Part shown: positions 10,380 to 64,000 of the stretch, piece by piece
How the letters are laid out: each line of letters opens with the position of its first letter
How positions within the stretch are numbered: position 1 is the stretch's first letter
Assembly (NCBI RefSeq): GCF_037392515.1
Contig: NC_090285.1
Location: 4,777,501-4,841,500 of the forward strand
DNA length: 64,000 bases
DNA from: Haliotis asinina
Lineage: Eukaryota; Mollusca; Gastropoda; Lepetellida; Haliotidae
Direction: 5' to 3'
Notes under the pieces: model-generated
Seen by the model: the letters and a program-made list of their open reading frames with translations, nothing else
What the model was told of the DNA's origin: nothing
Database searches by the model: none
Program-made: the position numbers and the translations under genes

Positions 10380-13300
10380 TGTTAACAGGTCTATTGCTCA
10401 CTATATTATGCTGAGCGTATAGGTGCGTGCGTATGTGAATAACTCACCCAAAGAAAATGGGATAAATTCCTCTCTCTTCTGAATCTTGCCTTCGCTATCA
10501 AGAAAACGATCCGGGCGAAAATTTTGTGGGTCTCCCCATACATCCTTGTCTTGGAGGACTGAATCAAGGTTCAATATGACTGTGACGCCTTTCGGGAAGG
10601 TGTATCCTCGGAACTGTACATCTTGTGGAACTGTGTGAGGGATAGTAACAGGAGCAATATTACCGTATCTCAAGGTTTCCATAATTGTGGCCTCTACGTA
10701 AGGAAGGTTCGTCTTGTCTTTCATGGATGGTGGTCTGCTCTGACCGACATTTTCCAGAATCTCCTGGAAGCACTTCTCTTGTACTTCCGGGTAGTTCAGG
10801 AAGTAGACCAGAGCCCAGCGTATTGTGGTGGAAGTTGTCTCTGAGCCCCCAGTGAACAGATCATTAACAGTCTGCGCCAGATTCTCCACTGCCAACACGA
10901 ATGATAAGCCCACATGACAGATGTAATGACCCCCATATCACCGCAAACACAATAATTACATGCCGACGAAAAACATGTTGAAATGCGAAAATGTTCTGAC
11001 AGAATCAACCATGCCTTTACTTCGTTCAGTGTAGATTCAGTGTAGATTCCAAAAGAAAGTTCAACTTCCTCAGTCTGTCAAATGTTTACTGAACCAACAA
11101 TGCGTTTTGAGAAAATTCCTCATCAGAGTTAAAAACAATAGCCAAATCAAAGCCATGCTTTAACAATATGAGTAAAATAATACGGATTGTACAGTGTACA
11201 GCCAAAATGATGTACTAGTTACAGGTTTGAACAAATAAAGAAAAAACAACTCTTCAAAATCAAATATCTCTGTCGTGGAAATAAATAATGTACATGCCAA
11301 GAACATCTGTAGATATTAATCTAATGTCTAAATCTAAATCTAATGTCACTTACTATCTAATGTCGTTGTTTCTTGTTTCTGTTGGCGACGTTGAATCTCC
11401 TTCAAGTAAACATGGATGAAGTCGTCCCGATTTTCCTCATCATGATCCTTTAAATGATCCTTAATGGAAGGTTTAATCATTAGATTTTCCACCATATCTA
11501 TGCTGTCCATTGTTTTCCTGAACTTGAATGGGTCACCAGGCAAATATCGCACAACAGGAAAAACGCTGAGTATTCCAGATACTGCGCTATATTTAAAAAG
11601 TTCATCCATTGCTTTCAGAAACTTGACGAAGACAGGGTCGGTATATTCAAAACGTTTGCCAAAGACAATGGAGCAGATGACATTTGACACTGCGTTCTGC
11701 ACAAGACGTTCTATATTGAAACCCCGTCCTTTACTTTCCTCCACGGCTAACACAAAGTGTGCAATTTCCTCGTGTATTTTGTCCTCCATGATAGTTCTTC
11801 CAGCCCCAAACGCTCGCAGAGTGTTGAGAGCAAAACGCCTCTGTTCATGCCACAAGTCCCCGGAGGTTCCGACTACACCTGTTTGAAAAATACGGTGAAA
11901 TAGAATTCAGTTCTATGACGTTGCACAAATCTGGCCGTGTTTGTTGAAGTTGTTTAGCAGTAATATTTGAATCAAGGCTTTTCTGCTATAAATCAGTTCA
12001 GGACCGTGGAAACCGCGGTATCTCTATTAAGACTGGGCGACAAGACTATCGAGAAAGGTTCTGAAGAATTGGAGGAAACGTTACATGTATACGGAGGGAG
12101 TCTGAATCTGGTCTTTGTTCACCTCACATTTCACGTTTCAAGGCCAGCAGGTATCGCGTTTCACCCTGCATACTCGGCCTTGGCCTGTTTTTAAAGATCC
12201 AGCACTGTTGCAGCGATGTGAATCTTATCATCACTATCTTTGTTGCCACGATGTTTTAACGTACAATCTAACGTCAACTATTATGTTATAGTTGTAATGA
12301 ATTTGTTTTATACCGTTTTATTACTGTGTAATTAGTTCAGAATACATTTGTTAATTCATTCAAATTTCTTTGTTGTTTCAGACGTTCATATTTTACACAT
12401 ACATCTCCCAAACTCTTCATTGTGAAACATCATAAAATTGGCTTCCACCATGGTGAATGGCGCATATATGCAAGCTGTGGTATTTGTGGTTCTTTGTATG
12501 TATGTCATTTGTACTGTGCCACCAAGGTATGTGGATCAGCTTTATAGTGGCACCTGGGTATAACATGGGTGAGCTGTACAGTGCTGCCAAGGTATGCCAT
12601 TGATCAGCAATATAGCGGTTCCAATGTATGCCATCATAGGTTTGCATAGGTTTACCAAAGAAGGGCACGAGTCAATTGCACGGTGCTACAATGGTATGAC
12701 ATGGGTCAGCTATATGGTGCCAAAAAGGGCATGGTGTGAATCAGCTGTATAGTGCTGCCAAGGTATGCCATGCGTCAGCTGTATAGGTCTGCCAAAGTAT
12801 GGCATGAGCCAACTGTGCGGTGCCAGAAAGGTATGACATGGGTCAGCTACGTGATGCCACAAAGGGTATGACATGGGTCAGGTGTACAGTGCAGCCAAAG
12901 TGTGACATGGGTCAGCTGTATAGTGATGACCTGTGACAACTGTACGGTGCCACAAAGGCATGATATGGGTCAGCTGTTTAGTCCAGCCCGAGTGTAACAT
13001 GGGTAAACCGTATGTTGCTGCTAGCTGTTTATGCTGTGCACGTGCAAAACGTTTATGATAGTATGGAAATATCCTGCTTACAAAAAATGAAGCAACGAGT
13101 ATTTTCAGTGTAACATCTATATCAATCTTCTGTAGCGATTTGCCCTACATGTCAATGACAGGTAAATATTCAAAGAATACATACCCTTTTGCGACTGTCA
13201 ATTTGATTTCTCTTATTATATCGACATCACCCGAACACAATCACCCATAGAAAATATGTGGCAGGAATGTTGTCACGTTTCTTGCTTTTTTTCTCAAGGA

Positions 13301-29091: not shown

Positions 29092-32000
29092 TGTGTGTAT
29101 GTATGTATGTATGTGCGTGTACGCGCGCGCGTGCGTGTGTATGCATGCACGTATTCATGTATGTATGCACGTACGTGTGTGTGTGTTTTCGTGTGTGTGT
29201 GTGTGTGTGTGCGTGTGTGTGTGTGTCCATGCCACTCTATGAAAGGAGCCTATGAGCATGTACTTATGTATGTGGATACAGGTCTGTTGCATACGATATG
29301 TAGCGTTTATATGTAACTCACCCAAAGAAAAAGGGATAAAATCCTCTCTCTTCTGAATCTTGCCTTCGCCATCAAGGAAGCGATCCGGCCGAAAGTTTTG
29401 TGGGTCTCCCCATACATCCTTGTCTTGGAGGACTGAATCAAGGTTCAACAGGATTGTGACCCCTTTCGGGAAGGTGTATCCTCGGAACTGTACATCTTGT
29501 GGAACTGTGTGAGGGCCAGCAACAGGGGCAATATTGCCGTATCTCAAGGTTTCCATAATGGTGGCCTCAACGTAAGGAAGGTTCGTCTTGTCTTTCATGG
29601 ATGGTGGTCTGCTCTGACCGACGTTTTCCAGAATCTCCTGGAAGCACTTCTCTTGTACATCCGGGTAGTGTAGGAAGTAGACTAGCGCCCAACGTATTGT
29701 GGTGGACGTTGTCTCTGTGCCCGCAGTGAACAGATCATAAATAGTCTGCGCCAGATTCTCCACTGCCAACATGAATGTAATCTTTAGTTTAAGTTCAAAT
29801 GACAAATGTAAATTACTCATATAAACACAACACAGAAACACAACAACTACATGCGAAATGCGAAAATACTGTAACAGAATCGGCCATGTTTTCACTAAAA
29901 GATTCTAAAAGAAAGGTCATCTTCCCCAGTCAGTCAGATTGACTTTTTACAGAACCAACAATGCTTTTTTACAAAATTCTCGATCAAAGTTAAAATGAAA
30001 GGCCAACATATAAAAAAATAATATGTGTTTTATATATATATACCAATATATACCAAATTCATTACACCATTATCTAAAATGATGTACTAGTTATATGTTT
30101 GAAAAGGAAAACAAAAAAATTAAAAGTAAGTATCCAGCGGACCTCTCTGTACATACCATGAACATCTTCAGATAATAAAACACACTTACAGTCTAATGTC
30201 GTTGTTTCTTGTTTCTGTTGGCGATGTCGCATCTCCTTCAAGTAAACATGGATAAAGTCGTCCCGATTTTCCTCATCGTGATCCTTTAAGTGATTCGTAA
30301 TGGAAGGATTAATTAGCAAATTTTTCACAAGATCTATGCTGTCCATTATTTTCCTGAACTTGAATGGGTCACCAGGCAAATATCGCACAAAAGGAAAAAC
30401 GCTCAGTATTCCAGTTACTGCGCTATACTTAAAAAAATCATCCATTGCTTTCAGAAACGTGACGAAGACAGGGTCGGTATATTCAAAACGTTTGCCAAAG
30501 ACAATGGAACAGATAATATTTGATACGGCATTCTGCGCTAAACGGTCTATGTGGAAACCTTGGCCTTTCTGTTCTTCTATGGCCAAGACAAACTGTGCGA
30601 TTTCCTCGTGTATTTTGTCCTCCATGATCATTCTTCCAGCCCCAAACTCTCGCAAAGTGTTGAGAGCAAAGCGCCTTTGTTCATGCCACAAGTCCCCGGA
30701 AGATCCGACTACTCCTGTTTGCAAAATATAGTGAAATAGAATTCAACCCTATGCCGTAGCATAAATGGCACTGTATGTATGTATGTTGGAGACATTTGTA
30801 GAACAGTGTTGTATGTGAATCACGTTGTTTCTGTTAAGACTCATTTCAGGACGGCGGTGACCTGGTTACTATATCAAGACTGGGAGACAAGATTATCGAG
30901 TAAGGTTCTGAGCCTACTCCGGAATATACCAGTACAGTGATGTCAGAAGAACTGGAGGAAACTTTTCATGTACACAAAACGGATCTCAATCTGGTCTTTG
31001 CCACCTCACATACTCAGGTGTTTTGCCTATTTTGAATGCCAAAGCACTGTTGCAGCGATGTGAATCTTACCATCAATATCTTTGTAGCTACAGTCAATGT
31101 TATTATATTATAGTTATATTGAATTTGTATTGAGACGCTGTTTCATACCGTCATTGTAATTTCTTTGTATAACGAGGTATAACATTGTTCAGGTATACAA
31201 TGCTGGGAAGGTATGACATTAGTGAGCTGTATTGTACCAACAAGGTATGACATGAATCAGCCGTATAATGCTGAAAAGGTGTGACACGGGTCATTTGTAC
31301 AGTGCTGCCAAGGTATGACATAGTTCAACTGCATGTTGCTGAAAAGGTATGATGTGGGTCAGGTGTATGTTGCTGCTAAGGTATGACGTGGGTCAGCTGT
31401 ATAGTGCTGCCAAGGTATGACGTTTGTCAGCTGTATGTAGCTGCCAAGGTATGACATGGGTCAACTGTATGTTGCTGCCAAGGTATGACATGGGTAAGCT
31501 GTATGTTGCTGCCACGGTATGACATTAGGGCAACTGTATAGTGCTGTGAAGATATGACATGGGTCAGCTGTATAGTGCTGAAAAGGTATGACATGGGTCA
31601 GCTGTAAAGTGCTGTGAAGGTATGATATGGGTCAACTGTACTTTACTGCCAAGGTATGACATGGGTCAGCTGTATGTTGCTGCCAAGGTATGACATGGGT
31701 CAGCTGTAAAGTGCTGTGAAGGTATGATATGGGTCAGCTGTACTTTGCTGCCAAGGTATAACATGGGTGAACTGTATGTCGCTGCCAAGGTATGACATGG
31801 GTCAACTGTAAAGTGCTGTGAAGGTATGACATGGGTCAGCTGTAAAGTGCTGTGAAGGTATGACATGGGTCAACTGTATAGTGCTGTAGAGGTATGACCT
31901 GCGTCGGCTGTTTAGTGTTGCTATGCGTCGATGGTATGCACGTGCTAAATGTCTATGATGGTATGGAAATACATAAAGGTAACAACGGGCGTAAACATGG

Positions 32001-49900: not shown

Positions 49901-50421
49901 GCATTAAAGTCTCCGCATAATATCAATTTACAGTTGTCACCAAAGTCATGGAAAAAATGAAACAATTGATTTTCAAGGGAGCTAATTCCACTGTCATCAG
50001 AATGATTATATACAATGGACCTCTCTGGGTGAATGTAAACAAAACCTATGATTGTCTGAGACAACGTGGAGTTTGAATTTATCTGGAAAAAGATACAATT
50101 ATTCCATTTCGCATACACCCTCTTGAAATATGAAGATATAGACTTCCTGATTCCTACCACTATCCCTCCTGAGATTCTCCCTCGAAGTTCAAGCCTTCTT
50201 GCATCATTGACAAAGATATCATACCCATAAAAAATAGTATTCAAGTCATATAGCTTTAAAGCATCGGGACACATTGTTTCAATCATTGAAAATATGGCAA
50301 ATGTTTTCAGAAAAGACACAAAATCGCCACAAACTACTTTAGATTTTAAGCCATGTATGTTCCTAGTACATACTGATAAACTTTCTTGACAACCTGGTAC
50401 AGTCAGAATGTCTGAGGACAA
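46922..50421 (-). pseudogene. LINE ORF2: APE endonuclease and reverse transcriptase, broken
   Basis: The start overlaps the ORF1 end by 59 bp in the +1 frame. The endonuclease contains SVCTRNIHGLKSK (usual Trp replaced by Arg), the Glu of MIET, CGDFNA, and SDHLPIV after a single in-frame TAA at 49776-49774. The RT contains GKAPGEDGIPPEF, NNYRGISIL, FIDFKKAFD, GVRQACVLSP (usually GVRQGC) and LLLFADDVTMF. Near 47780 a 1-base frameshift moves the reading to a second frame that continues as ACKIFDSKVSPILLYGSEIW to the stop at 46922. The end has a C-x2-C...H...C segment (CLQCDLNVMEDEFHVLFIC). One stop plus one shift makes this copy inactive; otherwise it is complete. Confidence 0.88.
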
Positions 50422-51460
50422 CTGGTGGGATACATTGGGACCAGTGCCGAGATCCTATTCCGTCGCACTGTTCTTCCATCTGCGATGACGTTGAAGTAGA
50501 GGTTTGCCTTGATACCCAATGCCGACGCTTGCCAATCCTACGTATGTCACCCGTATCACTTTCAGAAACAAAGATGTCACCACTGATAATCAGTTTATCA
50601 TAACTCAGGAAAGCGGTCTTCCCTTCATCTATGGCCTTCTGCATAAATGGGAATAGTTGGGATCTCACTCTGCGTACCCGTTCTGTGAAGTCCTCAGATA
50701 CCCGAAATATTTTATGGCCCTTCAATATTTTCCGAGCTGTGTCAAGAACAGAACTCTTGTCCTTGAAGAAGGTGAATTTCACAATGACAGGTTTAATTCC
50801 CGACTTTGATGGGAGACGATGCGCTCTTTCAAATGATATATCAGCTGGATCAATCTTCAAAACATCCTTAAAAAAGTCCCTGACATTATTTTCACACTCC
50901 TCCCAAGTTTCACCCTGTTTACCTTTAATGCCATGAAACAGTAGGTTATTTCGCCTTGACTGTGCCTCTAGGGTGTCAAGTTTTGCATCCATAGTTTCCA
51001 ATCTCTTTTTCAAGACAGTATTTTCCTCTGATACTGAATTTAACTTCTTGTTGAACTCAGATGTGAACATATCAAATTTATTGTCAAGGGATGTAAGCTC
51101 TGACTGGATAGCTTGTAGTGTTATAGCGAGATCATTTAGGGTTGAGTGGCTACTTTCTGGTGACTCTACCTCGCCTGATACATTCTTGGCTGATAATCGA
51201 GTTTGTACACCACCACGAAGCCCTGGTCCTGGTCCTGGGTTGGATTCCACATCCCCTGATACAAGTAGCAATGTCAGAAACAGCAATGCAACCCTGCAAC
51301 ATAAACGGGTACCTGTAGGTATCGCTATACCGTGATGTTTACATGTCGGTCGCCTCCTGTACGGACAAAATATCCCGATTCTGCACCTCCAAAGCTCAGT
51401 TGGAATGCCCATTTCCAACCAGACGATTCTTGAGTCGTCCTTGAAGTATGATGTATGCAC
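50363..51460 (-). CDS. LINE ORF1 protein with N-terminal 2A ribosome-skipping motif
   Basis: 365 residues if the ATG at 51460 is used (an in-frame ATG is also present at residue 17). Residues 57-67 are hydrophobic (VALLFLTLLLV) and run directly into SGDVESNPGP (68-77), an exact match to the 2A consensus D-x-E-x-N-P-G-P. Skipping would separate a 76-residue leader from a protein starting with Pro77. Residues about 105-170 form a coiled coil. 'QSRRNNLLFHGIKG' onward (167-300) resembles the RRM plus C-terminal domain of L1-type ORF1 (Transposase_22-like) RNA-binding proteins. The ORF is intact. Family knowledge: ORF1p binds element RNA. The role of the leader is inferred only. Confidence 0.88.
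   Translation of the reverse strand: MHTSYFKDDSRIVWLEMGIPTELWRCRIGIFCPYRRRPTCKHHGIAIPTGTRLCCRVALLFLTLLLVSGDVESNPGPGPGLRGGVQTRLSAKNVSGEVESPESSHSTLNDLAITLQAIQSELTSLDNKFDMFTSEFNKKLNSVSEENTVLKKRLETMDAKLDTLEAQSRRNNLLFHGIKGKQGETWEECENNVRDFFKDVLKIDPADISFERAHRLPSKSGIKPVIVKFTFFKDKSSVLDTARKILKGHKIFRVSEDFTERVRRVRSQLFPFMQKAIDEGKTAFLSYDKLIISGDIFVSESDTGDIRRIGKRRHWVSRQTSTSTSSQMEEQCDGIGSRHWSQCIPPVVLRHSDCTRLSRKFISMY
51230..51304 (-). other. 2A peptide coding region with preceding hydrophobic stretch
   Basis: Codons 53-77 of ORF1. Asp70, Glu72, Asn74, Pro75, Gly76 and Pro77 are all present, and peptide-bond skipping would be between Gly76 and Pro77. The upstream stretch (RLCCRVALLFLTLLLVSG) could act as a signal peptide when skipping fails. 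Confidence 0.85.
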
Positions 51461-51835
51461 AAAGTTCGTTTAAAGGTGACACTTATTGCTGTAATTGGCT
51501 GGAATTGCAGAGCTCGGTCACACAACAATCAAACCCGGTGATCAACGAATACACAAGAGAAACCTGTTTTACATGGCTAACGTCGAAGATGAAACTGATC
51601 ATTGAGGTATAACTGTGTTCCAAATGTCATGTTTAATGCTGATTTTGGTAGGACAACTGTTCCAATGAATGAGAAAGTTCGAATTCTAATCCTATATCCT
51701 GCTTAGGTTAGTTGTGTCTGGGTGAATTGCCCCCTTATCCCCTATCGTCATACCAGTCATACGCTTAGGGTGGATGGACCCTCATTCTTTGTCATTACTT
51801 CATACACTGATGCACATTGTGAAATCGGTTACCAC

Positions 51836-53907: not shown

Positions 53908-56900
53908 GTGAGTGAGTGAGTGAGTGAGTTAGTATTTAACGTCACATCGGCAGTATTGCAGCCATATCGTGACGAGAATGATTAATTATAAAAATACAAA
54001 TGAATTACTAGCACGGACATTGTAAAACCCTGTTAATGAAGGACAGTAAAACTGACTAGAATATCACAGAATAGAATATAAAACTAGTGAATAGACCTAA
54101 AACAATGTATCTATAGAGGACAGTACAATATAAAAATGAGCTACAGGTTGCCAACAACTGAAGGTAGATCACCATACTAAGGACCATGGGGACTTACAGT
54201 ACATTTGCTTCCTGCATGGACCCTAGCTGGATTTACATCATCCCTTCAGCTGTTAGCAATTTAGACAAATCTAGCCATAAAGTAAAAACACACTTATTCT
54301 ACGATTAAAAAGCTGGAAAACTGAAATTTACGTCAAATGTTTTTGGACTTACGTACCCTCTCAGGAGGACAATTATTTTACGGTACTTCAACCCCCTTTG
54401 AGGGTACAGCCACTAACGATTTGAGTTACTAATTTAATCTTCCAATTTTAAAATATTTATCTATTTACAGTTCAGTTAACAAATTTAATTCCTTTAAAAA
54501 TGCAATAATTAAATGAGGACTAACACTGTTAAAAAGATCCTTCATAGTATGTGAATTAAAATACTGATCCCTTGTGATGGAATATTCAACACAGTCAAGC
54601 AAGATATGCTTGACTGTGATTCTTTCATCACAAGGGTTACAAAACGGAGGATCCTCACCTTTCAAAAGGTATTCATGTGTGTATCTGGTGTGGCCAATAC
54701 GACATCGCCGCATGATGACTTCTTCAAATCTGGACTGACAACCCAAATAGCTGTAACCAATATAGGGTTTTATTGCATGTAATTTATTTATGCCCACTTG
54801 GGTGTCCCACTTCTTCTGCATCAGATCACGGATGTAAGTTCTAATGCTGGCTTTATAATCTGAGTATGGAATAAGAAGTGGTGTCACAGATTTGTTGAGT
54901 GCTGCCTTGGCAGCAAGATCGGCCATTGCGTTACCGGAAATACCTACGTGGCTGGGTAACCAACAAAAGACGATGTCGTATTGGCCAGTGGCAAGATTAT
55001 TATACAATTCAATAATTTCTATTAAAAGTGGATGTTTACAAGAGATATTTTTAATAGCTTGAAGGCAAGAAAGAGAGTCGGAATAGATTATGTATTGTTT
55101 ACGTTTAGGGTGTCTTTGAATATATTTGAGAGCTGTTAATATGGCGTTAGCTTCTGCTGTAAAAATAGAACTATTATCGGGTAATCGAGAAGATATTGAT
55201 CTGGATCCAGTGACAGTGGCACAGGCAACTGCGCCACCGTCCTTGGATCCATCTGTAAATAAGGATTTATAATTGCTATATTTATGTTTCAGTTGATTAT
55301 ATTCTTGTTTATACTGTAATTCATTCGTTTCTGTTTTTTTAAAAGTCGTTAATGTTAGGTCAACTTGTAGCCTAACCAACTGCCAAGGAGGAGAAGAAAG
55401 AAGACGGGAAGGAGCTATGTTTTCCAGCTCAATGCTGGCAGCAGAAGTAAGTGGTTTTATTCTTAAACCAAGAGGCGGAACAAGAGAAGATTTCGTTTTG
55501 TATAAATCCTCATACAGGGGATTGAAAACACAGTTATATGCAGGGTTTGACTCATTTGAATATAGTTTTGTTACATACTGTAAAGCTAATTTTATACGTC
55601 GCTGCTCAAGAGATGGTTCATCAGCCTCGACATACAGGCTGTCAACAGGTGAAGTTCTAAAGGAGCCAAGACAAAGTCTTAGACCTTGATGATGGACTGA
55701 ATCTAATAGTTTTAAGTTGCTTTGGCAGGCTCCACCATAGACAATGGAACCATAATCGAGTTTCGAACGCACGAGAGATCGATATAGATGGAGAAGGGTA
55801 GCTTGATCCTCTCCCCATTTTGAATTTGAAACCACTTTCAACAAGTCAAGTGCTTTCAGGCATTTAGTTTTAAGTGATTTAATATGTGGTAAAAACGTTA
55901 AGTGTGAGTCAAAAATGAGACCCAAGAACTTAGCTTCCTTCACAACTTTAATTGGTGTGCCATCTAGAGATAGTTCAGGGTCTTTATGTGGTTTATATTT
56001 ACGACAAAAATGTATACAGTTAGTTTTCGATTTAGAAAATTTAAAGCCGTTTTCAAGACACCATTTATTAATCTTGTTTAAACACAACTGTAGTTGTCGT
56101 TCAATGGTATTCATATTTTTACCACGACAAGAAATATTAAAATCATCCACAAATAACGATCCATCAATTGAATCGTTTAAAACTTTTGATAAACTGTTTA
56201 TCTTTATACTAAAAAGTGTGACTGACAAAATACTGCCCTGTGGAACACCCTGATCCTGATTGTAATGATCAGACAGGGTAGAGCCCACGCGGACCTGGAA
56301 TTGTCTGTTATTTAAAAAGTTGGCAATAAAGTCAGGCAAACGACCTCGCAACCCGAAGTCATGTAAATCTCGTAAAATGCCACATTTCCAAGTAGTGTCA
56401 TATGCTTTTTCAAGATCAAAAAAGATAGACACAGCGTGTTGTTTGTTAATCAGTGCGTTTTTCACAAATGATTCTAAACGCACTAAGTGATCGACAGTAC
56501 TTCTGTTTTTCCGGAAACCACATTGTATATCTGTGATAAGGTTATTAGTTTCCAAATACCAAACAAGTCGATTATTTATCATGCGTTCCATGCTCTTGCA
56601 AACACAGCTTGTTAATGAAATCGGACGATAATTGGACGGATCCGTATGATCACGTCCAGGTTTAGGTATTGGTACTACTATGGCGTCACGCCATGAAGGA
56701 GGAAGGTTACCCGATGTCCAAATATCATCAAAAATATTTAGGAGAGTTTCTAGGCAGGATTCTGGTAAGTGCTTCAGGAGTTGATAATGAATGTTATTAG
56801 CTCCAGTAGCAGTGTCATGAGCCTGATCAAGAGCAGTATGGAGTTCATGAATAGAAAACGTTTCATTATAATCTTCCCCATTATCAGAATTGAAATTAAT

Positions 56901-57502
56901 AGTTTTCTTTTCTTGTTGTTTTTGATATTGCTGAAATTTAGGTATATAATTAGAAGAGGAAGAATGTTTAGCGAGAGTTTCGCCCAGTTTATTTGCGATA
57001 TCTTTTTTATCAGTAAGTAACAGATCTCCATGTTTAAGATGATGGACAGTAGATTTAGTACCTTTGCCTTTAATTTTCTGGATCATGTTCCATACCTTGG
57101 ACATAGGTGTCCGAGAATTTATTTTGGATACATAATTTTGCCAAGATTGGCGTTTGTTCTGTTTAAAAGTACGCCGTGCTTTAGCATTTAAAATCTTAAA
57201 TTTATTTAAATTAAGCACCATAGGATGGCGACGGAAATAATGTTCTGCCTTTTTCCTTGCCTTCCTAGCTTGTTTGCATTCATCGCTGAACCATGGTTTT
57301 CGAATATGTGGAACTGCAGAGGACTTTGGTATACATTCATCAGCTATAGATTTCAGTTCATCAGAAAAGCATTTGATAGCGTCAGGAACAGTAATAAAAT
57401 ATTCAGGTTGAAGCTTCGCAGCACACAGCGTTTCATATAAAGGCCAATCAGCCTTTTTAAAATTCCATCTTGTTGATGGGGGTACATCAGATGGTGTTGT
57501 AG
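53908..57502 (-). mobile_element. Outer I/Nimb-like LINE, 3' part (interrupted element)
   Basis: The element runs from its 3' tail ((GTGA)n on the plus strand plus hairpin CGTCAC/GTGACG, about 53908-53975) up to 57502, where another copy of the same family is inserted. Its 5' continuation is at 63597-64000. Across the junction the endonuclease and linker reading frames join without loss once the 11-bp duplication is counted once. Confidence 0.9.
54465..57502 (-). pseudogene. ORF2 of outer LINE: reverse transcriptase and RNase H (intact 3' part)
   Basis: About 1,010 uninterrupted codons. Taking the ATG at 57533 as residue 1 (the first ten residues come from the inserted element's tail and are not native), RT spans about 283-560: VVPIPKPGRDHTDPSNYRPI, FFDLEKAYD, GVPQGSIL, and the catalytic FVDD at 461-464 (most families have YADD). 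The RNase H domain has FTDGS (Asp761), TAEA (Glu795), SDS (Asp819) and ADLAAK (Asp872). A C-terminal FCNPC...HILLDC cluster (about 964-981) is a zinc-binding motif. RT plus RNase H with APE endonuclease indicates the I superfamily. The 5' part carries a 7-bp deletion, so the whole gene is not functional. Confidence 0.9.
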
Positions 57503-57565
57503 AGTGAGTGAGTGAGTTAATACTTAACGTCACATCGGCAATATCTCAGCCATATCGTGACGAGA
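57503..57565 (-). other. LINE 3' hairpin and (ACTC)n tail
   Basis: The (GTGA)n tract is followed by a sequence whose ends CGTCAC and GTGACG pair, with loop core GGCAATATCTCAGCC. The same arrangement is at about 53910-53975 (outer copy) and at 32368-32426. It resembles the SINE tails at 17157, 19335, 20492 and 28503. Confidence 0.85.
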
Positions 57566-58053
57566 ACTTTCAACAATGAAAAAGAGCATATATAAATCAT
57601 AAAAACCCGTCAACGAAGGACAGTAAAACAACTAGAATATCACAATTTCAATTAAAACTAGCATGGAAAGTTAAAACTAATAGCACTATTTAGACAATAC
57701 AATATAAAAACAGACTATAGATCGCCAACAACAGAAGGTAGATCACCACACTAGGAACCATGGGGACTTACAGTACCTTTGCTACCTGCATGGTCCCTAG
57801 TTGGATTTACACCATCCCTTCAGCTGCTGGCGATTGTATGAAAAGTTAGCCGAAATTAAAAGAACATGAATGCTACGATTAAAATCCTGGTAGACTTAAA
57901 TTTACTGTGAATGTTTGTGGACTTGCGTACCCTCTCAGGAGGACAATAATTTTACAATACTTCAACCCCCTTTGAGGGTACAGCCACCAACGATTCAAGT
58001 TACTAATTCAAACTACCAATCATTAAAATGCATCTATTTACACAACATAATTT

Positions 58054-61000
58054 TCAAAATTCCACCAAAAAATCAATTTCTTTTAAAAAACCAATGATTA
58101 AATGACAACTAACAGTGCTAAAAAGGTCCTTGATAGTTTTGACATTGAAAAATTTATCCCTTGTGATGGAGAATTCAACACAGTCAAGCAGAATATGCTT
58201 GACCGTGACTCTCTCATCACAAGGGATACAAAACGGAGGATCCTCACCTTTCAAAAGGTATGCATGAGTGTATCTTGTATGGCCAATACGACATCGTCGC
58301 AAAATGACTTCTTCAAATCTGGACTGACAACCCAAGTATGTATAACCAATGAAGGGTTTTATTTCATGTAGTTTATTTATACCTACTTGGGTGTCCCACT
58401 TCTTCTGCATCAGATCACGAGTGTAAGCTCTAATGCTAATTTTGTAGTCAGAATAAGGAATACGAAGTGGTGTCACAGATTTGTTAAGTGCTGCCTTAGC
58501 AGTAAGATCGGCCATTGCGTTACCGGAAATGCCAACGTGGCTGGGTAACCAACAGAAGACGATGTCGTATTGGCCAGTAGCAAGATCATTATATAATTCA
58601 ATAATTTCTATTAAAAGTGGATGTTTACAAGAAAGATTTTAACAGCCTGAAGGCAAGAAAGAGAGTCGGAATAGATTATATATTGTTTATGTTTATGGCG
58701 TCTTTGAATATATTTAAGAGCTGTTAATATGGCGTTAGCCTCAGCGGTAAAAATAGAACTGTTGTCTGAGAATCTAGAAGATATTGTTCTGGATCCAATG
58801 ACAGTGGCACAAGCTACTGCGCCACCGTCCTTGGACCCATCTGTAAATAAGGATTTATAACTGCTATATTTATGTTTCAATTCATTATATTCTTGTTTAT
58901 ACTGTAATTCATTAGTTTCTGATTTTTAAATGTGGTCAGTGTTAGGTCCACTTGGGGCCTAACCAACTGCCAAGGAGGAGAAGAGAGAAGACGGGAAGGA
59001 GCTATGTTTTCTAGCTCAATGCCGGCAGCAGCAAGAAATGGTTTAATTCTTAAACCAAGAGGCGGTACAAGCGAAGATTTCATATTGTATAAGTCCTCAC
59101 ACAGAGGACTGAAAACACAGTTATATGCAGGGTTTGACTCACTGGAATATAATTTTGTTACATACTGTAAAGCTAATTTGATACGTCGCTGCTCAAGAGA
59201 TGGCTCATCGGCCTCAACGTACAGGCTGTCAACAGGTGAAGTTCTAAAGGAGCCAAGACAAAGTCTTAGACCTTGATGGTGAACAGAATCTAAAAGTTTC
59301 AGGTTGCTTTTACAGGCTCCACCATATACAATGGAGCCATAATCAAGTTTTGACCGGATCAGTGATCGATAAAGTTGCAGGAGGGTAGCTTGGTCCCCTC
59401 CCCATTTAGAATTTGAAACGACTTTCAACAAGTCAAGTGCCTTCAGGCATTTAGTTTTGAGGGATTTGATATGTGGTAGAAACGTTAAATGTGAGTCAAA
59501 AATTAATCCCAAGAACTTGGCCTCCTTTACAACTTTGATGGGAGTGCCATCTAGAGATAGTTCTGGGTCCTTATGTGGCTTATATGTTCTGCAAAAATGT
59601 ATACAGTTAGTTTTGGACTTCGAAAATTTGAAGCCGTTTTCAAGACACCATTTATTTATTTTGTTTAAACACAACTGCAGTTACCGTTCAATAGTATGCA
59701 TATTTTTACCACGACAAGAAATGTTAAAATCATCCACAAATAATGATCCATCAATTGAATCGTTTAAAACTTTTGACAAACTATTTATCTTGATACTAAA
59801 AAGTGTGACTAACAAAATACTACCTTGTGGAACACCCTGATCCTGATTATAATGATCAGACAGGGTAGAACCTACGCGAACTTGAAACTGTCTGTCATTT
59901 AAAAAGTTGGCTATGAATTGAGGCAAACGACCTCGCAAACCGAAATCATGTAGATCTCTCAAAATGCCATATTTCCAGGTTGTGTCATATGCTTTTTCTA
60001 GATCAAAAAAGATAGACACAGCATGTTGTTTATGAATTAGTGCGTTTTTCACAAATGATTCCAGTCGCACTAAGTGATCGACAGTACTTCTGTTTTTACG
60101 GAAACCACACTGTATATCTGTGATTAGGTTATTGGTTTCCAAGTACCAAACAAGTCGATTATTTATCATGCGTTCCATGCTCTTGCAAACACAGCTAGTT
60201 AATGAAATCGGACGATAATTGGACGGATCCGTATGATCACGTCCAGGTTTAGGTATTGGTACTACTATGGCATCACGCCATGAAGAAGGAAATTTACCTG
60301 AAGTCCAAATATCATCATAAATAGATAAGAGCGTCTCTAAACAGGTTTCTGGTAAGTGCTTCAGGAGTTGATAATGTATGTTATGTGTCATGAGCTTGAT
60401 CAAGAGCAGTATGGAGTTCATGAATAGAAAACGTTTCATTAGAATCTTCCCCATTATCAGAATTGAAATTAATAGTTTTCTTTTCTTGTTGTTTTTGATA
60501 CTGCTGAAATTTAGGTACATAATTAGAAGATGAAGAATGTTTAGCAAGAGTTTCGCCCAGTTTATTCGCAATATCTGATTTATCAGTAAGTAAGTGATCT
60601 CCATGTTTAAGATGATGGACAGTAGATTTAGAACCTTTGCCTTTGATTTTCTGGACCATGTTCCATACCTTGGACATGGGTGTCCGAGAATTTATTTTGG
60701 ATACATAATTTTGCCAAGATTGGCGTTTGTTCTGTTTAAAAGTACGCCGTGCTTTAGCATTTAAAATTTTAAATTTATTTAAATTATGCACCATAGGATG
60801 GCGACGGAAATAATGTTCTGCTTTTTTCCTTGCCTTCCTAGCTTGTTTGCACTCATCATTGAACCATGGTTTTCTTATCTGTGGAACTACAGAGGACTTT
60901 GGTATACACTCATCAGCTATGGAATTCAGTTCATCCGAAAAGCATTCAATAGCATCAGGAACGTCAATAAAACGTTCGGGTTGAAGTTTTTCAGCACACA

Positions 61001-61746
61001 GTGTTTCATATAAAGCCCAGTTAGCCTTTTTAAAATTTCGTCTTGATGATGGAGGAACATCGGATGGAGTTACAGCTTTTAACATAGTAGGAAAATGGTC
61101 ACTTCCACAGAGGTCATCGTGGACTGACCATTCGAATTCATTTAGTAGTTCGGAAGTTGTCAATGACAAGTCAAGAGCACAATAGGTCACTGTCCCAGGG
61201 TGTAAATATGTGTTGGAACCATCATTATAAATACATAAGTCATTGTCAGAACAAAAGTCCACCAACAATGTCCCTTTAGTGGTTGTAGTTACACTACCCC
61301 AGAGTGGGTTGTGCCCATTTAAATCTCCCATAATAATACAGGGCTTCGGGAGCTGATCATACAGAGCTTGAAGATCAGTTTTGGCAAACGTCGTCGACGG
61401 AGAAATATAAAGAGAGCATAGCGTAAACGCTACATGTAAAGTAATTCTCACTGCAACAGCCTGCATATTAGTATTAAGTGAAACAGGGCTTTGAATAACG
61501 TTTTGTTTGACTAGAATGGATGATCCGCCAGTGGCCCTATCACCCGGAGGTGCAAAACAGTGATATGCATTAAACTGACGAAGGTCAAATGTATCTGTTT
61601 GTTTTAAATATGTCTCCTGGAGACATATCGCTGAAGGTATAAAATCTTGGACTAATAGATGTAATTCATGTACATTAGTCCTTAATCCTCTGCAGTTCCA
61701 CTGTACAATATTATTGGAATAAACTATCTTTTGGGGGGATTTATTG
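58054..61746 (-). pseudogene. ORF2 of inner LINE: APE endonuclease, RT, RNase H; broken
   Basis: The open frame begins just after a TAG at 61749-61747, overlapping the ORF1 end in the -1 frame. The endonuclease is complete: NNIVQWNCRGLRTN, CLQET, MGDLNGHNPLWG, GSDHFPTML. No ATG occurs in frame until 61466, inside the endonuclease. Disabling changes relative to the outer copy: a 14-bp deletion near 60384, a CAA-to-TAA stop at 59683-59681, and single-base frameshifts near 58928 and 58640. RT boxes (GVPQGSIL, LFVDDFN), RNase H boxes (FTDGS, TAEA, SDS) and the C-terminal C-x2-C...H...C are recognisable. Confidence 0.9.
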
Positions 61747-61747
61747 G
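61724..61747 (-). promoter_or_regulatory. ORF1/ORF2 overlap with CCCCCCAAAAG run (possible -1 frameshift site)
   Basis: ORF1 reads AAT CCC CCC AAA AGA TAG. The ORF2 frame is -1 and open from the codon after TAG at 61749-61747. The C6A4 run (61738-61729) precedes the ORF1 stop. It is not a canonical X-XXY-YYZ heptamer. Confidence 0.4.
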
Positions 61748-62998
61748 GGATCTACCCCGCACTCTTTTGGAGGGCGACAAGCTATGTGCCCTAGAATGGA
61801 CGTTTTCAGAAACGTCCATGTCTTCAAGAGACCCGTATTTATTGAACAATTGAATTTTGTTCTGTGACCCTTTAGGAGTTCTACCACTTTGTTGTTTTGA
61901 AGCATCAGGCTTTGGCTTCGATTTATTTTTCACAGTTTGTTGACTATCAGCTGTGGATTGAGACTTTGAGTGTGACTGAGATGATGATTTGTGATCAGAA
62001 GACGACTTTGAGGTACTAGGAAGTGATTCCTCAGTCTGTGATGATATAGCTGGGTACAAAAGCTGTGGAGAATCGCAATTTACCCAAGTCAACGTAGTTT
62101 GGCAGCCTGTGGTTGATGTAGTGTTAGATTTAGATCCTGATGATGTTTTTGCTACTGTAGCATAAGTTTGTGGAAGATCAGATCTCTTTACCAGTTTTTT
62201 GGCCTCCGAAGAAGAGATATTTTGAGTAAATTTTATTTTATTGATATCCATTTGCTCTTTCCAAATAGGACACTGTTTAGAAAAGGACGAATGGTCGCCT
62301 GAGCAATTGGTGCATTTTTTATAATCGCTGTCACAATCTTCTGTTGTGTGTGTCTTCTCACCACAGTGAGCACACACAACAGACAATGTGCACGTATTTA
62401 CACCGTGTCCATATTTCTGGCATTTAAAACACCTGAGTGGGTTGGGGATGTAGGTATCAACTTGTATGTTGCAGTAGCCTGCCTTCACTGATTTTGGAGC
62501 ATTTGGACATGAGAAAGTAAACAGATACGTATTTGTTTTGACGGTTTCGTTGTTTCTGCGAGTTGAAAAGCGCTTGACATATAGTACACCTTGATCTTTC
62601 ATTTCAGATCCTATATCAAGTTCCGACATGTCATCAAACAATCGATCTCTATATCTCACGATACCTTTACTTGTATTCAAGGTTTTGTGTGCAGAAACCG
62701 TGACGGGAATGCCCACGAAAGATTTAATATTCATCAGATTTGTTGCTTGCTGCTTTTTCCCGCACTCGACTAGCAGGGCACCCGAACGTAAACGTCTTAT
62801 GCTCTTCACATCCCCAGCAATGCCTTGAATACCTTTGGATACAGCAAAGGGGTTCAATTTCAACGGTGTCTTGTCAGGAGTCTCAATCACAATGAAACGT
62901 GGCCAATACTCAATCGATGTAGATGGTCTATGGTCAGTATCAACAGGGTCAATATCAAGTGGACGTTTTGTTTTTTTTGTTGGAGTTTCATAAGCCAT
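61724..62998 (-). CDS. LINE ORF1: gag-like nucleic-acid-binding protein with three CCHC zinc knuckles
   Basis: 424 residues from the ATG at 62998 (MAYETPTKKTKRP); an in-frame ATG at 63052 would add 18. The first 190 residues form a domain of the kind found in I/Jockey ORF1 proteins (RFIVIETPDKTPLKLNPFAV, then a GIPVTVSAHKTLNTSKGIVR region). Three zinc knuckles follow: CFKCQKYGHGVNTC, CAHCGEKTHTTEDC and CTNCSGDHSSFSKQC. The C-terminal third is Ser/Lys-rich and low-complexity (SSSDHKSSSQSHSKSQS) and ends in basic RVRGRSPINPPKR. The frame is intact although ORF2 of the same element is broken. The protein is expected to package element RNA. Confidence 0.88.
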   Translation of the reverse strand: MAYETPTKKTKRPLDIDPVDTDHRPSTSIEYWPRFIVIETPDKTPLKLNPFAVSKGIQGIAGDVKSIRRLRSGALLVECGKKQQATNLMNIKSFVGIPVTVSAHKTLNTSKGIVRYRDRLFDDMSELDIGSEMKDQGVLYVKRFSTRRNNETVKTNTYLFTFSCPNAPKSVKAGYCNIQVDTYIPNPLRCFKCQKYGHGVNTCTLSVVCAHCGEKTHTTEDCDSDYKKCTNCSGDHSSFSKQCPIWKEQMDINKIKFTQNISSSEAKKLVKRSDLPQTYATVAKTSSGSKSNTTSTTGCQTTLTWVNCDSPQLLYPAISSQTEESLPSTSKSSSDHKSSSQSHSKSQSTADSQQTVKNKSKPKPDASKQQSGRTPKGSQNKIQLFNKYGSLEDMDVSENVHSRAHSLSPSKRVRGRSPINPPKR

Positions 62999-63052
62999 GG
63001 TTAGTGTAATACGGTTCATCATCCGAGCTCCCCACCCACCACGGAGTATCAC

Positions 63053-63527
63053 AAGGACAATGCTAAAGCAAGCGGCCTCCAGCTTACAGCACCAAGGATA
63101 CCCGGATGATATATTCCAGCAGAAGAATTAGAAATAATTAATCTACCAGATTGGCCCATGAGCCACCGCCTTCTGGGCACAAGACTCTAGGCAAAAGTTC
63201 AGAACTTCAAAAATGCATTTTAAATTTCGAAAAGCTCAATGAACAAATAAGCCAAGACCGAAAGTAAAAATCCAAATAAAATTTGTGCAATGACACATAT
63301 CCTCCATGCACAGGGCTTGGCATGACCAGCCGATTGGTCGAACCGGGCCCATTCGACCACCCGTCTAGGTGAAGTCAGGGCCAAAGTGGTGTGTTAGGCA
63401 ATGGAACACAGTTAAAAGCCCCAGTGCCCTCAACCACCAGGATCCCGTCCTCCACCGACACGGGACGCAACCCACGGCAAACGGGTTGGTGGACCAAATA
63501 TCCCCCCGGGTCCACTACGGGGGTGTC
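63053..63527 (-). other. 5' leader of inner LINE
   Basis: About 475 bp between the ribozyme and ORF1, GC-richer than the surroundings at its outer end (for example GGACCCGGGGGGATA). No open frame was recognised. It may hold the internal promoter. Confidence 0.5.
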
Positions 63528-63585
63528 GGCGAGCTCTTAGCATTACCCAGCACCCACCACGAGGAGGTGGCTCGCCACGGGTGCC
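63528..63585 (-). ncRNA. HDV-like self-cleaving ribozyme at the 5' terminus of the LINE
   Basis: Hand folding of the first 58 nt (position i = 63586 - i on the plus strand). P1 is GGCACCC (1-7) with GGGUGCU (31-37), 7 bp starting with a G1-U37 wobble. P2 is GGCGAGC (10-16) with GCUCGCC (52-58), 7 bp. P3 is ACC (18-20) with GGU (28-30). L3 is UCCUCGU (21-27), whose CC can pair with G38-G39 as P1.1. J4/2 is GCUAAGA (45-51), with C46 in the place of the catalytic cytosine. P4 is minimal or absent. Cleavage before G1 would fall exactly on the border between the 11-bp target duplication and the element. Known role in R2, L1Tc and RTE-type elements: release of the element RNA 5' end from upstream transcript. 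Activity here is inferred. Confidence 0.85.
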
Positions 63586-63596
63586 TGGTGTTGTAG

Positions 63597-64000
63597 ATTT
63601 TAGTATAGTAGGAAAATGGTCACTTCCACACAGGTCATTGTGGACTGACCATTCAAAGTAAGTTGGAGTCAGTTAGTGACAAATCAACAGCTGTATATGT
63701 TCCTGTGCCAGGATGTAAATATGTATTTGTACCATCATTGTATATACATAAATTATTATTCGAGATGAAATCTTCCAGAACCTGACCTTTTGTGTTTGTG
63801 GTCACACCACCCCAAAGAGGATTGTGCCCATTTAAATCACCCATGAGTATACATGGTTTGGGTAATTGATCATAGAGAGTTTGTAGATCAGCCTGGAGAA
63901 GAGTCGATGAAGGTGGAATGTACAATGAACACAAAGTAAGAGTAACGTGCAAAGTAATTCGCACTGCAACTGCTTGAAGATTAGTTTTGAGAGTCACAGG
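63597..64000 (-). pseudogene. Outer I/Nimb-like LINE, endonuclease part (continues past the window)
   Basis: This is the 5' continuation of the element at 53908-57502. It encodes NLQAVAVRITLHVTLTLCSL, MGDLNGHNPLWGG, an NTYLHPGTGTYTAVDLSLT segment and, after a 7-bp deletion near 63657 that breaks the frame, DHFPTIL. Reading across the inserted copy, ...PTILKSTTPSDVPPS is recovered in frame. ORF1 and the 5' end lie outside the window. Confidence 0.9.

Follow-up and report, generated by a model that had tools for sequence, protein, structure and literature searches.

The window, by which we mean the whole stretch of 64,000 nucleotides of Haliotis asinina DNA analysed here, carries on its minus strand a LINE copy headed by a 58-nt segment (63585-63528) that forms a nested double pseudoknot of helices P1, P2 and P3 in the order of the HDV family, with cleavage predicted immediately 5' of the base that opens P1 (G1, 63585). 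The copy interrupts an older, related LINE within its endonuclease region and leaves parts of it on either side (Table 1); this older LINE has a ribozyme of its own at its own 5' end, and a BEL/Pao-like element, named by eye, lies beyond. The original prediction had placed the segment at the 5' end of an I/Nimb-like LINE, and the protein domains bear out a LINE host: Pfam identified the endonuclease in ORF2 of the inserted copy, and RT (PF00078) and RNase H (PF00075) in the older copy, which has 88% DNA likeness to it, while CCHC-like motifs were recognized by eye in ORF1 (61724..63127), for which Pfam gave no match. The layout of the I superfamily is present, with ORF1 followed by an ORF2 having an apurinic-type endonuclease, RT and RNase H, the latter two being seen in the older related copy.

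Nesting of ribozyme-headed LINEs was also observed at three other loci (L076, L014 and L009), where one stretch holds two ribozymes or nested elements. Elsewhere in the window, the ORF1-like frame of a different LINE (50363-51469, minus strand) carries DVESNPGP close to its start, a 2A-like motif of a kind known in LINEs. Cytochrome P450-like exons, named by eye, occur at 10401-11906 and 29155-30742 (-).

Table 1. Coordinates, strand and basis of the features at the locus
Feature	Position	Strand	Basis
HDV-like ribozyme without P4, 58 nt; predicted cleavage 5' of G at 63585	63528..63585	-	Rfam alignments, descriptor, resamples, fold
P1 5' strand, GGCACCC (positions 1-7)	63579..63585	-	fold
P1 3' strand, GGGUGCU (positions 31-37)	63549..63555	-	fold
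P2 5' strand, GGCGAGC (positions 10-16)	63570..63576	-	fold and covariation
P2 3' strand, GCUCGCC (positions 52-58)	63528..63534	-	fold and covariation
P3 5' strand, ACC (positions 18-20)	63566..63568	-	fold
P3 3' strand, GGU (positions 28-30)	63556..63558	-	fold
L3, UCCUCGU	63559..63565	-	fold and Rfam alignments
GUAAUG (G40-U-A-A-U-G45) at the place of P4	63541..63546	-	fold and Rfam alignments; variable positions
Putative catalytic C46 of J4/2 (GCUAAGA)	63540	-	fold; C in 83/86 distinct-flank copies
5' copy of the target-site duplication (TSD), flush with G1	63586-63597	-	
3' copy of the TSD, after the (CTCA)n tail; approximate, one boundary base ambiguous	57492-57503	-	
Ribozyme-headed LINE copy of about 6.1 kb, ending in a (CTCA)n tail; ORF2 broken across several frames	57504..63585	-	
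ORF1, stop to stop; CCHC-like motifs by eye	61724..63127	-	
N-terminal part of ORF2, endonuclease domain	60381..61751	-	Pfam PF14529, PF03372
Older related LINE, downstream remainder (RT, RNase H)	54465..57491	-	Pfam
Older LINE, upstream part (endonuclease region), running past the window end	63598..64000	-	

Fold of the 58-nt segment and its detection

Read 5' to 3' from 63585, the segment is GGCACCC GU GGCGAGC C ACC UCCUCGU GGU GGGUGCU GGGUAAUGCUAAGA GCUCGCC. P1 comprises seven base pairs, G1·U37 and six Watson-Crick pairs; P2 likewise has seven (10-16 with 52-58) and P3 has three (18-20 with 28-30), and the CC of L3 could form P1.1 with GG38-39 (63547-63548). A P4 stem is absent, with five to six nucleotides in its stead. 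Each part of the double pseudoknot originally proposed was recovered, including UCCUCG in L3, the GG available for P1.1, the C of J4/2 and the near-absence of P4. A competing fold of the window copy that is not pseudoknotted, in which positions 11-15 pair with 23-27, is calculated at -23.9 kcal/mol, versus -12.8 for P1 with P3 and -10.1 for P2, each taken singly. Inspection of the alignment by eye showed this competing pairing to be weaker in the second of the P2 haplotypes described below and broken in the third, with P2 intact in both.

A descriptor of the fold, scanned over both strands of the window, identified three sites (12729 on the plus strand, 52356 and 63585 on the minus strand), among which only 63585 has at least six of seven pairs in P1 together with six of six Watson-Crick pairs in P2. 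Applied to 80 resamples of the window generated by a first-order Markov model, the descriptor yielded 0.24 sites per window in its loose form and none in its strict form. Interrogation of the window with Rfam 15 at gathering score gave no match. Under relaxed conditions, a search of 301 bases returned three models with scores far below their gathering cut-offs: RF02682 (HDV-F-prausnitzii; 25.1 bits, cut-off 44, E 0.0087), RF00094 (22.8 bits, cut-off 50) and RF01787 (drz-agam-1; 16 bits, cut-off 37). The RF02682 and RF00094 matches both cover the segment 63585-63528 on the minus strand. With RF02682 the abalone ribozyme has in common the J4/2 sequence GCUAAGA, and with RF01787 the P3/L3 segment ACCUCCUCGUGGU. 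Four other loci with copies of the ribozyme gave no Rfam match at E-values up to 1; since Rfam 15 is silent both in the window and at these loci, standard annotation may miss this class in animal genomes.

A common 5' border among genomic copies

In the window copy, G1 is the first base of the LINE and adjoins a 12-bp TSD, TCTACAACACCA; empty versions of this insertion site were found at two loci (L007 and L008). The claim that the predicted cleavage position coincides with the border between element and TSD extends to a wider set of 58 copies (from L002-L006, L009-L040 and L059-L078), 57 of which, the window included, have non-identical 30-nt flanks and all of which 57 begin at one common base. 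The 58 were gathered with a search expression that is partly fixed over positions 1-30 and free over positions 31-58. Almost all pairs among the 57 have flanks no more alike than expected by chance; L002/L004 (0.87), both of which lie in the same LINE region, and L018/L033 (0.6) are the exceptions. When 3' ends were sought at ten further loci, the tail motif was present in seven; TSDs of 12 bp beside G1 were identified in three and one of 5 nt in another, the flushness of these being by construction, since only the bases directly before G1 were considered. At the other six loci no TSD was found in this search, and three of the six also lacked the 3' motif.

Three samples, each chosen by a route of its own, show the same border. 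A query of 200 bases covering the ribozyme and 5'UTR but free of flanking sequence gave 40 matches, of which the 30 examined have a common border and unrelated flanks, L025/L026 excepted. Among loci selected by ORF1, using as query the protein of a Solemya LINE (a selection blind to the LINE 5' end), the 5' end carries the ribozyme core in 19 of the best 20 of 94 matches; the one remaining, L063, is truncated at its 5' end and starts at LINE position 392. A descriptor check of 5' ends, of the kind suggested with the original prediction, was made on these loci, and 16 of the 20 passed the strict form, all among the 19 headed by the ribozyme, with P1 or P2 broken in L066, L068 and L071. Finally, in a sample chosen by positions 17-42 only, the LINE alignment begins at the first base in all 20 loci examined, which have 18 distinct flanks.

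Two further observations concern the flanks and sites of insertion. Upstream of the 57 copies, G is scarce at -9 to -12 (four to five of 57) and T is frequent at -12 (28/57); the bias falls approximately at the start of the 12-bp duplication and possibly reflects a cutting preference of the endonuclease. In addition, insertions in the window copy, L002-L006 and L040 cluster to within some 25 nt in the endonuclease region of LINEs related to them, a possible hot spot at a place that the queries favour.

Copy number, conservation and compensatory changes in P2

Exact matches to a 26-nt core of the ribozyme, spanning positions 17-42 and leaving position 32 free, number 4,280 genome-wide (2,148 + 2,132), and the reversed core, as a control over the genome, has none. 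Among the matches listed, cores are dense on one contig (C1) at 0.77-2.89 Mb and 5.14-6.16 Mb, about one per 30-40 kb, the genome-wide average spacing being one per 267 kb. From the first 100 core places listed, all on this contig between 0.77 and 7.29 Mb, we assembled a set of 99 copies, omitting one locus already sampled (L006); these represent 86 distinct flanks and 43 distinct rows. The pattern by which the set was collected fixed P3 and all but one base of the 3' strand of P1 (P1').

Three haplotypes of P2 recur among the 86 copies with distinct flanks: GGCGAGC/GCUCGCC (54 copies), GAAGAGC/GCUCUUC (nine) and GAACGGC/GCCGUUC (three), with variants of these in the other 20. Pairing of P2 is complete in 73 of the 86; 2000 shuffles averaged 49.8 and never exceeded 58. 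When the 43 distinct rows were compared, changes on both sides were seen at pairs 11-57, 12-56, 13-55 and 14-54. The number of cells changed on both sides (30 versus a shuffled mean of 6.8), the covariation score (0.158 versus 0.071) and the proportion of paired cells (95.5% versus 90.5%) were each matched in none of 500 shuffles, whereas the number of pairs changed on both sides (four, against 3.2 on average in shuffles and reached by 192 of 500) and of further pair types (12 versus 12.0) showed no excess. Because this covariation reflects two alternative haplotypes and variants of them, inherited by many copies, it represents few independent events. At the 20 loci for which longer DNA was available, copies of different P2 types are about 0.72 identical downstream of the ribozyme, copies sharing the first type 0.73 and copies sharing the second 0.90, which marks the second type as a subfamily and the first as itself diverse.

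Covariation had been proposed as a check on all three helices, and it upholds P2, at the four pairs given, without extending to P1 or P3. P1 is nearly invariant, and neither it nor P3 shows covariation in a set whose pattern fixed P3 and P1' save one base; in the six copies genome-wide with P1' changed at both 32 and 33, a 7-bp P1 is restored in none. The alignment of 57 copies contains no compensatory change. One outcome named beforehand as telling against the ribozyme was the loss of P1 or P2 complementarity in full-length copies. It was sought and occurs in single broken copies, but the ribozyme was not refuted by it: P2 covaries, and 66 of the 86 copies with distinct flanks retain G1, complete P1 and P2 helices and C46, the other 20 failing in at least one of these.

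The putative catalytic base and the GG of the predicted P1.1 are conserved as well. C46 is kept in 83 of the 86 copies, and GG38-39 is invariant in the 57-copy alignment, where the search expression left these two positions free. Positions departing from the majority in at least three of the 57 copies are 42, 44, 47 and 56, the first three of which fall in the replacement of P4 and beside C46; the 99-copy set varies also at positions 8, 9 and 51 and in P2. Mean pairwise identity among the window copy and 19 loci chosen by ORF1 is 0.978 in the ribozyme, 0.83 and 0.94 in the first and second parts of ORF1, and 0.72 to 0.96 in stretches of the 5'UTR (0.72 at 260-400), so that conservation in parts of both the 5'UTR and ORF1 comes close to that of the ribozyme.

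Predicted role, alternative readings and known systems

We conclude that the segment is very probably a 58-nt self-cleaving ribozyme, HDV-like and lacking P4, that heads a large group of LINEs in H. asinina and frees the LINE RNA at G1. The fold is conserved, the border is common, TSDs are flush with it in four copies (by construction at those beyond the window) and changes in P2 are compensatory; from border, fold and covariation, the simplest account would be the mechanism already described for LINEs such as R2 and L1Tc. An RNA would start upstream of the LINE, from a host promoter or from the surrounding older LINE, and then fold. By analogy with the known HDV family, the 2'-OH of base -1 would attack the phosphate preceding G1 while C46 acted as the general acid, and cleavage would free a LINE RNA with an exact first base, which may serve as the template for transposition. 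If reverse transcription of the freed RNA ended at G1, each new full-length copy would start there, directly after the TSD.

Where the transcript begins bears on how much the ribozyme must accomplish. That unrelated flanks meet the element at G1 agrees with co-transcription driven by any promoter outside it, and we put forward, tentatively, the possibility that this is an untargeted and promoterless LINE group living off transcription that crosses it, including that of older host LINEs, with the P4-less ribozyme alone fixing the 5' end. We regard with equal reserve the possibility of a promoter in or near the element, combined with a ribozyme trimming the 5' end as reported for trypanosomatid L1Tc. 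Such a dual function is described for L1Tc (PMC8256844), and conserved blocks of 5'UTR follow the abalone ribozyme, one of them common to a Solemya LINE; against a promoter in the flank, positions -1 to -12 contain no fixed motif, only the scarcity of G at -9 to -12. An internal promoter starting at G1, with the 5' segment retained for its promoter activity, or for an RNA structure used in packaging or translation, and not as a ribozyme, seems to us improbable. Some LINEs are described as having a promoter that starts the RNA at the precise 5' end (PMC3774820), and such an arrangement would accommodate both the conservation of downstream 5'UTR stretches and a P1 nearly invariant in sequence beyond the needs of the helix alone; however, it leaves unexplained the compensatory changes in P2 and the HDV arrangement of L3, GG and C46, and a start at G1 would provide no bond to cut and no reason for keeping the fold.

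That the segment is a degenerate relic of an HDV-like ribozyme, no longer cleaving and merely carried along by transposition, we judge very improbable. While low Rfam scores, the lack of P4 and the occurrence of broken copies (C46 being changed in three of 86) would agree with decay, the intact majority of distinct-flank copies, the compensated changes in P2 and an identity exceeding that of neighbouring parts of the element all argue for a maintained structure. We give almost no credence to the remaining proposal, that the LINE specifically targets the endonuclease gene of its relatives, in the manner of R2 and 28S rDNA. The idea arises from a query containing the flank, which returned several copies in the same endonuclease region and is biased toward that result; among the 30 flank-free loci, with flanks unrelated except in one pair, only the window's own lies, by eye, in this endonuclease region, and junctions within it differ over about 25 nt. 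Strict specificity of the R2 kind, for one common target, is refuted by this flank-free sample.

Taking the self-cleaving ribozyme as the preferred reading, several implications follow for its wider study. A P4-less HDV-like ribozyme, probably of an abalone type already in print, gains a definite host in a LINE group with 4,280 core matches, and offers many natural variants with compensatory P2 changes for work on structure and function. How untargeted LINEs obtain their transcripts becomes testable by mapping 5'-OH ends. Should the promoterless reading be true, few self-cleaving RNAs of an animal genome would be more abundant than this ribozyme, with its more than 4,000 core copies, and many host transcripts would be cut.

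Relatives were sought in two further collections. Two pattern scans of IMG/VR found nothing, and a protein scan confirmed none of 17 candidate stretches there. GTDB contigs gave five loci, including a scaffold attributed to a Solemya velum symbiont (L045), which holds a related LINE with a block of 5'UTR common to the abalone LINE; neither Rfam nor the descriptor identified an HDV-like ribozyme in it. This scaffold carries bacterial genes and then a mollusc-type LINE with long ORF1 and ORF2, and is probably chimeric or host-contaminated. The 5' region of the Solemya LINE (L045 7960-8040) contains GTTGCCCCC...GTCGTAAGAGGCGACTAAAAGGGGGCAAC, a P2-like pairing with a CUAAAAG joint that is possibly another structured RNA; no HDV fold of this module was obtained by eye.

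Among systems already described, HDV-like ribozymes occur at the 5' ends of R2, R4, Dong, Baggins, L1Tc and RTE elements, and for LINE ribozymes other than that of R2 cleavage is placed at the 5' end of the element (PMC3774820); going by these descriptions, place and predicted role are alike in the abalone element and the host LINE is different. The same source describes P4 as dispensable or optional in the HDV-like family and the silkmoth R2 ribozyme as also being without it (PMC3774820). Minimal drz or theta ribozymes, known from metagenomes and gut phages, are reported to have the HDV fold without a P4 domain and are often associated with phage tRNAs, whereas the abalone ribozyme is associated with a LINE (PMC10879173). 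Closest by description is an HDV-like ribozyme of the abalone Haliotis discus, of the same genus as H. asinina, in which P4 is likewise replaced by 5 nt (Webb and Luptak 2011, cited in PMC3774820), and which is probably of the same type as the ribozyme of the H. asinina LINE. HDV-like ribozymes at LINE 5' ends were thus already known; to these the present analysis adds the LINE host, its copy number, the border, and natural covariation in P2.
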